From: Phycisphaerales bacterium
GTDB lineage: Bacteria; Planctomycetota; Phycisphaerae; Phycisphaerales; UBA1924
DNA: 64,000 bases
NCBI GenBank assembly: GCA_022843045.1
Contig: JALHOJ010000005.1
Span: 1 to 64,000, forward strand
Direction of reading: 5' to 3'
The notes under the pieces are model-generated. The model had not been told where the DNA came from. It saw nothing but the letters and a program-made list of their open reading frames with translations, and did no database searches. This document shows positions 24,103 to 34,000 of the stretch, piece by piece. The position numbers and the translations under genes were made by a program. Position 1 is the stretch's first letter; each line of letters begins with the position of its first letter.

Positions 24103-24217
24103 TCACCACAAAGACACGAAGTGCACGAAGGGGAAAGAGCGCAGGGTTGGATCGTCGCGCGGCGACCGATCTCGACCTCTGCCCCTCTTCTTTGTGTCCT
24201 TTGTGTCTTTGTGGTGA
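24103..24217. repeat. Long inverted repeat between convergent genes
   Basis: Left arm 24103-24143 begins TCACCACAAAGACACGAAG; right arm 24177-24217 ends TTTGTGTCTTTGTGGTGA. The outer 15 bases pair perfectly and the rest is degenerate. Arms are made of ACACAAAG-like units. It starts 4 bp after the EF-G-like stop and abuts the flgF stop, so it fills the convergent gap and could terminate both transcripts. Confidence 0.8.
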
Positions 24218-24219
24218 CA

Positions 24220-24999
24220 CTACCCGATCGGCCTGCCCAGCGCCGTAATCGCGCGGTCCATCAGGCGATCATGCGCTCGCATCGCGTCGACGTTGGCGTC
24301 GACTTCGCGCGAAGCGCTGGTGACGTTCATCAAGGCTCGCAGTTCGTCCACGGCGGACTCTTCCAGCATCTGCTGGCGAAGGTTGCCGAGCGGTCGCAGG
24401 TTGCTGCTGAAGACCTCGGGCGGCGCGAACATCATGCTGTGCCCGGCTTTGCGGAGCTGCGTGCCCTCGGGCACATCGATGAACTTCATCCGCGCAACCG
24501 TGCGGTTATTGACAGAGATCGTGCCGTCGCCATCGATGCGAAGTTCGCCTGTGGCGGGAATCGTGATCCGCTGGTTGTTGGTGTCGAGCACAGGCAGGCC
24601 GCTTCCGGCCATCACCAGTTCGCCCGCGGGGTTGCGGAGCAGGCGGCCGTCGCGCGTCAAGCGCTGCGGATTGGTGGAGTCGGAGGGATCCTCAACGACG
24701 AGGAAGCCCCTGCCTTCGACGGCGACGTCGAGCATGACGCCGGTGCGTCGCAGCGAGCCTTGTTCAAGGTTGATGCGGTTGGGCCGCAGGAACGTGCCAC
24801 CGCCGAGCTTTTCGAGCAGGGCGTTGCTGGGCAGGTGACCCACGCCGTCTTCGGTGCGGACGTCAGGGCGAGCCTGGATGCTGGGGAGGTCGGCCTTGAA
24901 GCCGATGGTGTCGAGGTTCGCGAGGTTGTTCGCGAAGACGTCCTGGCGATAGAGGGCGGTCATGACGCCGGAAGCGGAGATTTGGAGGCCGTAGGACAC
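24220..24999 (-). CDS. flgF: Flagellar basal-body rod protein FlgF
   Basis: The 259-residue proximal-rod protein is of the FlgE/F/G family. The N-terminal rod signature is SYGLQISASGVMTALYRQDVFANNLANLDTIGFK, the central part includes VAVEGRGFLVVED, and the C-terminal helix SSNLRPLGNLRQQMLEESAVDELRALMNVT...AHDRLMDRAITALG completes the coiled-coil pair. Length fits FlgF. It is exported by the flagellar type III machinery and so has no Sec signal. Unusually it is transcribed away from flgG rather than in front of it. FlgF versus a second FlgG is judged from the degenerate C-terminal motif. Confidence 0.88.
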   Translation of the reverse strand: MSYGLQISASGVMTALYRQDVFANNLANLDTIGFKADLPSIQARPDVRTEDGVGHLPSNALLEKLGGGTFLRPNRINLEQGSLRRTGVMLDVAVEGRGFLVVEDPSDSTNPQRLTRDGRLLRNPAGELVMAGSGLPVLDTNNQRITIPATGELRIDGDGTISVNNRTVARMKFIDVPEGTQLRKAGHSMMFAPPEVFSSNLRPLGNLRQQMLEESAVDELRALMNVTSASREVDANVDAMRAHDRLMDRAITALGRPIG

Positions 25000-25041
25000 G
25001 GGGGATGTACAGCAAGTGCGGTGCCGGGGCGGGGGGACGAC

Positions 25042-25162
25042 AGCGATACATCGATAAAGCGATACAGCGATACATAGCTGCGGAACGCGTACGGCGTCTT
25101 CGCCCCTACGAGTCGAGCTACGGGCCTTCTGTATCGCTGTATCGCTTTATCGATGTATCGCT
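25042..25162. repeat. Perfect 33-bp inverted repeat in the flgF/flgG divergent gap
   Basis: Bases 25042-25074 are the exact reverse complement of 25130-25162, with a 55-bp spacer. Each arm contains AGCGATACA twice-over (units of about 9-12 bp: AGCGATACATCGATAA then AGCGATACAGCGATACA). It lies between two divergent start codons, where a terminator role is unlikely. A degenerate solo arm occurs at 30236-30262. Confidence 0.9.
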
Positions 25163-25211
25163 TTCCGCTGGCACGCCCTTCGCGTCCACTCCAGTCCCGG
25201 AGGACCTTCTC

Positions 25212-26021
25212 ATGGCCATCAATGCGCTCCAATCCGCGTCTTCTGCGCTCTCGGCGCTCAACACTGCGCTAGACGTCACGGCGAACAACCTGGCGAACAT
25301 CAACACCGACGGGTTCAAGACCAGCCGGACGAACTTTCAGGACTTGCTCTATATCGAGAAGGCCCAGCCTGGAACGCTCAATGCGAATCAGGATCAGCGG
25401 CCCATCGGGACGTACGTGGGCCTGGGCGTCCGCGTGTCGGGGACGCATCTGGACTTCACGCAGGGCGCGCCGCGCTTCACGGGCAAGCCGCTGGACATCA
25501 TGATCGAAGGTGAAGGATTCTTTGAGGTTGCGGTGGAGGATCAGTTGGGGCCGGGCGGGCTGGCATACACGCGGGCGGGAAACTTGTCACTCAATTCCGA
25601 GGGCGAATTGGTCCTTGCGAACGATCAGGGGCGACGGGTGCAACCGGTGCTGACGGTGCCCCCCGAAGCAACCAGTATCTCCGTGAGTAAGGACGGCGTG
25701 GTCAGAGCGTCGATCCCGGGCGAGACCGAGCCACAGGAAATCGGCCAGCTCAACACGAGCACGTTCATCAACCCGGCGGGCCTGAAGCAAGTCGGTGAGA
25801 ACCTCTACGTCGAGACGTCTGCCAGCGGCGCACCAAACAGCGGCGTGCCAGGCACCGACGGCCGCGGCACCGTGAGCAGCGGATTTCTCGAAAGCAGTAA
25901 CGTTGATCCGACGCGCGAACTGATCGACCTGATCAGGACGCAGCGGGCCTTTGAATTCAACAGCCAGTCGATCCGGGCGGCGGACGAGAGCTTGCGGGCG
26001 GTGGCGCAGCTGCGCCGGTAA
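25212..26021 (+). CDS. flgG: Flagellar distal rod protein FlgG
   Basis: 269 residues from ATG 25212, preceded by GGAGG 8 nt upstream. It has the N-terminal motif ALNTALDVTANNLANINTDGFK, the central LDIMIEGEGFFEV, and a C-terminal FLESSNVDPTRELIDLIRTQRAFEFNSQSIRAADESL, matching FlgG closely. It forms the distal rod passing through the P and L rings, and is substrate of the flagellar export apparatus. First gene of flgG-flgA-flgH, which probably form one transcript. Confidence 0.94.
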   Translation: MAINALQSASSALSALNTALDVTANNLANINTDGFKTSRTNFQDLLYIEKAQPGTLNANQDQRPIGTYVGLGVRVSGTHLDFTQGAPRFTGKPLDIMIEGEGFFEVAVEDQLGPGGLAYTRAGNLSLNSEGELVLANDQGRRVQPVLTVPPEATSISVSKDGVVRASIPGETEPQEIGQLNTSTFINPAGLKQVGENLYVETSASGAPNSGVPGTDGRGTVSSGFLESSNVDPTRELIDLIRTQRAFEFNSQSIRAADESLRAVAQLRR

Positions 26022-33845: not shown

Positions 33846-34000
33846 GTTCGATTTCAGCACAGAGACACAGAGATGAGGAGGAAGAGGAGAGAGTCGGTGG
33901 GGATGGTGAGCAGACAAGCAATGCGGCTTGTCAACAACCTTCCAGTCCCTGTCTTTCTCTTTTTTCTCCTGATCCCTGTGTCGCTGTGCTGAAATCGAAC
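33846..34000. repeat. Long inverted repeat, TTTCAGCACAGAGAC type
   Basis: Left arm 33846-33895 begins GTTCGATTTCAGCACAG; right arm 33951-34000 ends CTGTGCTGAAATCGAAC. The outer 17 bases pair perfectly, and the inner parts, rich in GAGGA units, are degenerate. It lies between the aminotransferase stop and the amidohydrolase start, both minus strand. Bases 33852-33890 agree with 41146-41184 at 38 of 39 positions. Confidence 0.85.

Follow-up and report, generated by a model that had tools for sequence, protein, structure and literature searches.

A perfect inverted repeat between the flgF and flgG genes of a Phycisphaerales bacterium is probably one copy of a dispersed extragenic octamer repeat

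Results

The window, that is, the whole stretch of 64,000 nucleotides analyzed here, corresponds to positions 1 to 64,000 of contig C5 (JALHOJ010000005.1) of a Phycisphaerales bacterium (GCA_022843045.1), the draft genome of which comprises 4.08 Mb on 147 contigs. Two genes for flagellar rod proteins lie head to head in this window, with a long inverted repeat between them (Table 1). The right gene was identified as flgG by an NCBIfam equivalog model (score of 302.7 against a cut-off of 252.75), in agreement with the name given to it in an earlier, sequence-only reading of this DNA. The left gene encodes a member of the FlgE/F/G subfamily, for which the best specific model is flgF, with a score of 118.6 that is below the cut-off of 178.5. 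We call it FlgF on the basis of synteny and of its amino acid identity with relatives (51 to 59%).

Table 1. Genes, predicted promoter motifs, and parts of the inverted repeat at the flgF/flgG locus (positions in the window)
Feature	Position	Strand	Remarks
flgF-like rod protein gene	24220..24999	-	FlgE/F/G subfamily; synteny
Sigma-54-like -24/-12 motif of flgF	25011..25026	-	CGGCACCGCACTTGCT; score of 20.0 of 22.6
Left copy of the dispersed module (model R1)	25040..25081	+	54.5 bits; ATAGCTGC on the loop side
Left arm	25042..25074	+	Four 8-mers + A; exact reverse complement of the right arm; internal 8-nt repeat
Spacer	25075..25129	.	55 nt; no promoter-like or terminator-like match
Right copy of the dispersed module (model R1)	25128..25164	-	47.1 bits
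Right arm	25130..25162	-	Exact reverse complement of the left arm
Sigma-54-like -24/-12 motif of flgG	25169..25184	+	TGGCACGCCCTTCGCG; score of 20.3 of 22.6
flgG rod protein gene	25212..26021	+	NCBIfam equivalog; followed by flgA-like and flgH genes

The perfect 33-bp inverted repeat described in the sequence-only reading was reproduced at all 33 positions, and it stretches to 36 nt at 97% identity (25039-25074/25130-25165). Folding of the element as DNA gave -51 kcal/mol, as compared to -21.2 (SD of 2.7) for 200 shuffled sequences (z of -11); since this energy is 11 standard deviations below that of the shuffles, the inverted repeat is no product of chance. Absent from the earlier reading were the internal repetition of the arms and the multicopy nature of the element. 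The left arm is built of four 8-mers in the order AGCGATAC, ATCGATAA, AGCGATAC, and AGCGATAC, after which comes ATAGCTGC. The unit AGCGATAC is free of stop codons in all six frames, and the element is open in the flgG frame (window 25005-25211), so that a gene caller may extend flgG as far as 25005.

Promoters dependent on sigma-54 have the consensus TGGCACG-N4-TTGCA, and transcription starts approximately 11 nt downstream of the motif. With a simple score based on our own weights for this pattern (maximum of 22.6), a sigma-54-like motif was predicted for each of the two genes; scores of at least 20 were reached by 9 of 3,000 random 150-nt stretches. Both motifs are located outside the arms, the best sigma-54 score within the spacer is 15.8 of 22.6, and a sigma-54 gene is present in the genome. 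No sigma-70-like promoter was found in the flgF/flgG region by a consensus scan, and the region contains no intrinsic terminator with a T-tract. Sigma-54-like motifs with a score of at least 19.3 precede flgF in 11 of the 18 genomes scored, and they precede flgG in all four genomes of the genus and in 1 of the 17 genomes that have flgF and flgG together. Of the 11 genomes with the flgF motif, 8 have a distance of only 10 to 17 nt from the end of the motif to the flgF start codon; so short a distance would leave the flgF mRNA nearly leaderless. Upstream of the flgG motif in G001 (L070:5108-5267) and of the flgF motif in G002 (L068:4962-5201), there are unrelated hairpins, built of 8-mers and 7-mers, respectively, each of which ends approximately 10 nt from the sigma-54-like motif.

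As for gene order, flgF is located upstream of flgG and on the same strand in 17 of 20 fetched relatives and at 46 of 49 planctomycete loci; these 49 are the loci that were planctomycete by title among 80 returned (the other 31 were left out), and they overlap with the set of 20. The exceptions are the three same-genus genomes among the 20 relatives and L164, L243, and L233 among the 49 loci. A divergent order was found at none of the loci of these two overlapping sets. The three same-genus genomes, which are drafts, have flgF and flgG on different contigs. The genus breaks the usual flgF-flgG order (window 24220-26021; L067-L072): in the window, flgF and flgG diverge from the element that lies between their starts, and elsewhere in the genus the two genes are separated. 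No flgF neighbor shared by the four genus genomes was found within the stretches compared. In L072 (contig C180 of the draft G003), the FlgG match is limited to the first 91 residues. A scan of viral contigs for FlgG gave no confirmed relative.

The sequence-only reading had proposed a search for the arm elsewhere, and this search revealed a multicopy element. When the 212-nt region was used as a DNA query, 22 matches on 11 contigs of the same genome were obtained. A sequence-only model of the module (R1; approximately 40 nt), derived from an alignment of 14 module copies, gave 29 matches at an E value of ≤0.01; these correspond to 22 places, which include marginal matches, and the 14 arms used in model building, among them both flgF/flgG copies, match by construction. 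Both arms were found by the model within 200 nt at 10 of the 22 places, counting arms down to 15.9 bits and setting aside two matches of 7 to 8.5 bits. All 10 are plus-then-minus pairs in which the ATAGCTGC ends point inward, with gaps of 2 to 107 nt between the matched arm ends. The single minus-then-plus neighborhood (L258) has its matches 591 nt apart. The single-arm places on C25 and C79 still fold as long hairpins, and that on C3 does not. The arms are clearly imperfect in 8 of the 10 elements compared. The mean pairing of own arms was 21.1 versus 18.4 for re-paired arms (10 elements; 889 of 20,000 re-pairings were as good), and the own partner ranked first in two cases, namely, the flgF/flgG copy and the C79 copy. 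Own arms are thus only slightly better matched than re-paired ones, which gives no clear sign that the family as a whole keeps its arms precisely paired.

According to the gene calls of our script, 21 of the 22 places are intergenic and 1 is inside a gene, where a place was considered intergenic if at most 60% of it lay inside a gene, and four places touch a gene end; intergenic DNA accounts for 16.3% of a 464-kb sample of the genome that includes the window. The contexts are tandem in 11 cases, divergent in 5, convergent in 5, and intragenic in 1, and the 246 sampled gaps of at least 60 nt comprise 153 tandem, 59 divergent, and 34 convergent ones. This comparison indicates that the element is intergenic and has no clear preference for either the 5' (promoter) or the 3' gene end. 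Ten neighboring genes were tested, of which purH, ftsY, a gene for a XerC-like recombinase, and the visible part of atpA passed NCBIfam cut-offs; nuoH, truD, mlaF, and meaB were the best matches below the cut-off. Two neighbors had no NCBIfam match at 1e-20, and Pfam identified MlaD in one and CheW plus a receiver domain (CheV-like) in the other.

The occurrence of the module in relatives was assessed with the same model, under stricter filters, in 61 genomes of the family including the own genome (G002 and G003 are outside that draw). Matches range from 0 to 14 per genome, with 52 of the 60 relatives having none; G031 has 14, G083 has 5, and six others have 1 or 2 each. A 16-nt pattern with two mismatches allowed was matched in 77 of 120 genomes, in most of them at counts similar to those of the backward control. 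An excess of matches over control matches was found in seven genomes, with 34 versus 8 in the own genome (G000), 19 versus 1 in G002, 48 versus 7 in G031, 17 versus 0 in G083, 19 versus 2 in G101, 194 versus 6 in G121, and 71 versus 1 in G142. The array units differ by genome and are AGCGATAA/AGCGATAG in G002 and AGCGAGAC in G083, G121, and G142. The latter three genomes, which belong to one related genus, contain direct arrays of at least 10 AGCGAGAC-type units (L126, L121, and L116, respectively). Among 16 stretches of relatives chosen for their arrays, a plus-minus pair within 200 nt was found in three (L133 of G002, L265 of G009, and L268 of G031); the remaining ones have arrays on one strand, apart from L267, in which the arms are farther apart.

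Seven gene ends at other loci were compared in G001, G002, G003, and G005, resulting in 28 stretches, 8 of which have a conserved second neighbor (3 at purH, 1 at ftsY, 1 at mlaF, and 3 at meaB). Within these eight gaps with both neighbors conserved, a scan found no 7- to 9-mer array or inverted repeat, and the module model had no match. As a control, the scan recovered the element at 6 of the 7 loci of the own genome, missing that at ftsY, and the model recovered all 7, so that the empty-site comparison at ftsY relies on the model only. Across the 28 stretches, the model gave one match, which is partial (13.6 bits) and lies in G002 next to the xerC-like gene, and the scan found no inverted pair. 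Arrays are present in 4 of the 20 stretches without a conserved second neighbor (ftsY, nuoH, and the xerC-like gene in G002 and mlaF in G003), which may mean that some of the sites are old or are hot spots. Given that these relatives are distant, as reflected in the flgF identities, loss of the element in them is possible.

Rfam returned seven matches, all below the gathering score; six were to microRNA precursor families, which we take to be generic hairpins, and one was to the sRNA Atu_C7. The element had no match in plasmid and phage collections, and the exact two-armed pattern had none in the GTDB contigs, a collection that may omit the own genome.

Discussion

The element between flgF and flgG is probably one copy of a lineage-specific, dispersed, noncoding extragenic repeat, present as a tolerated insertion and not as a switch. 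It consists of two inverted, inward-facing octamer-array modules of approximately 40 nt around a variable spacer, and at this locus it is situated between two sigma-54-like promoters that face outward. Its copy number and the empty sites suggest that it arrived by insertion or copying as a nonautonomous unit, REPIN- or MITE-like in its behavior; no transposase, target-site duplication, or exact ends were found for this element. Since it lies upstream of both predicted promoters, it may be tolerated there, neither switching nor controlling them. The three options of the sequence-only reading had been a phase switch, a large operator, and a recent insertion, of which the last is retained in view of the multicopy family and the empty gaps at other loci. 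A finding that speaks against this explanation is that the same-genus hairpins near the flgG motif of G001 and the flgF motif of G002 exceed the expectation for purely random placement.

In invertible promoter elements, such as the fim and hin switches, exact inverted repeats are located between genes. The element resembles them in that exact inverted repeats flank a segment, here between divergent flagellar genes, but the chance that it is an invertible switch controlling flgF and flgG is minimal. Consensus scans of the 55-nt spacer identified neither a promoter nor a gene end whose orientation could matter, and the predicted sigma-54-like motifs are outside the arms. No serine or tyrosine recombinase match was found in the window or on its contig, all seven matches of the genome (two to PF00239 and five to PF00589) being on other contigs, and the module also adjoins housekeeping genes, where the arms are imperfect. 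Flagellar phase variation was a tempting reading, but it is unsupported and is now removed. An operator dedicated to the flagellar genes was rejected as well, because the module also adjoins many nonflagellar genes, such as purH, atpA, ftsY, and the xerC-like gene. A nucleoid protein or a global regulator might bind the octamer pairs as arrays, and at this locus the array would shape the DNA between the two sigma-54 promoters. This idea, by analogy with the published class 1 to 3 sites of Geobacter metallireducens, which share the architecture, is consistent with the 7- or 8-mer hairpins close upstream of a flgF or flgG sigma-54-like motif in three of the four genus genomes (the window, G001, and G002). 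We nevertheless consider it unlikely, as the genome-wide placement has no clear promoter preference, the module is missing from all eight conserved-neighbor gaps and from 52 of 60 relatives, and the unit varies between genomes.

The very stable stem and a share of convergent places (5 of 22) somewhat above the sampled one (34 of 246) would suit a bidirectional terminator or insulator that blocks read-through between neighboring transcription units. Such a role is distinctly improbable, given that the region has no T-tract terminator, that 11 of the 22 places are tandem and 5 divergent, and that the predicted starts of flgF and flgG, placed with the 11-nt offset, are not within the element and would direct transcription away from it. 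The divergent position, used before as an argument against a terminator, is a valid argument for the flgF/flgG copy. In a draft of 147 contigs, the joining of flgF to flgG, or the perfection of the arms, could stem from a misassembly at the repeat, and the divergent order is seen at none of the overlapping 20 and 49 loci of relatives. However, flgF and flgG are also on separate contigs in the three same-genus genomes, themselves drafts, and in same-genus genomes each gene has its own sigma-54-like motif, so that this origin appears very improbable.

No description of the element in Planctomycetota was found in the open-licence papers searched, and the nearest system is that of G. metallireducens (PMC2700814). 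The class 1 sites of this bacterium consist of four tandem octanucleotides GTTGCTYN, in opposite-strand pairs at variable distance; the sites of classes 1 to 3, tandem 8-mers or 7-mers with units GTTGCTYN, TCTCCGTS[Y], or MTYCTGA, are mostly paired in this way, are present in many copies, adjoin unrelated genes, and have been proposed to bind IHF/HU or an unknown regulator, which is a hypothesis in that report too (PMC2700814). The element described here is similar in having about four tandem 8-mers, opposite-strand pairs, variable spacing, and many copies, but it differs in its unit (AGCGATAC versus GTTGCTYN/TCTCCGTS) and belongs to another phylum (PMC2700814). With REP/REPIN sequences it shares the short extragenic repeats, inverted pairs, variable spacer, and lineage-specific copy number, whereas the consensus of the octamer module has no GTAG or CGTC tag (PMC3733652). 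The genome does contain two RAYT-like Y1 transposase genes (L074 and L075, on C53 and C35), flanked by a GTAG-bearing palindrome; the octamer module was not found beside these two genes, the palindrome there being a different one. The TAACTGA repeats of marine Beggiatoaceae are likewise intergenic tandem 7-mers in many copies, but they are direct repeats, with one inverted case reported, and mostly lie upstream of start codons (PMC4679880).

It is conceivable, though rather doubtful, that the octamer-array pairs of Phycisphaerales, and perhaps those of Geobacter, are an extragenic class of their own without RAYTs, in which the units turn over and the architecture stays. If this were true, it would be as if an octamer-recognizing protein had coevolved with the arrays. 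That the array design recurs with different units across genomes raises the question of which factor copies the arrays or reads them. In a genome of this kind, an inverted repeat that is long and perfect can belong to a lineage-specific family of octamer repeats.

The position of flgF, with a hairpin on either side, led us to consider the elements as rearrangement breakpoints; this idea was rejected, since four other loci (purH, ftsY, mlaF, and meaB) keep their neighbor order without the module in at least one relative. The 464-kb sample of the own genome contains 29 arrays of 7- to 9-mers with many different units, some of them genic, as compared to none in a single simulated control of equal size. 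The second hairpin next to flgF (window 24103-24217), which fills the gap separating the flgF stop codon from that of a convergent EF-G-like gene, is of another repeat type (CACAAAGACACGAAG), and similar hairpins are present in the same sample at L091:7320-7400, L092:8106-8264, and window 33846-34000.
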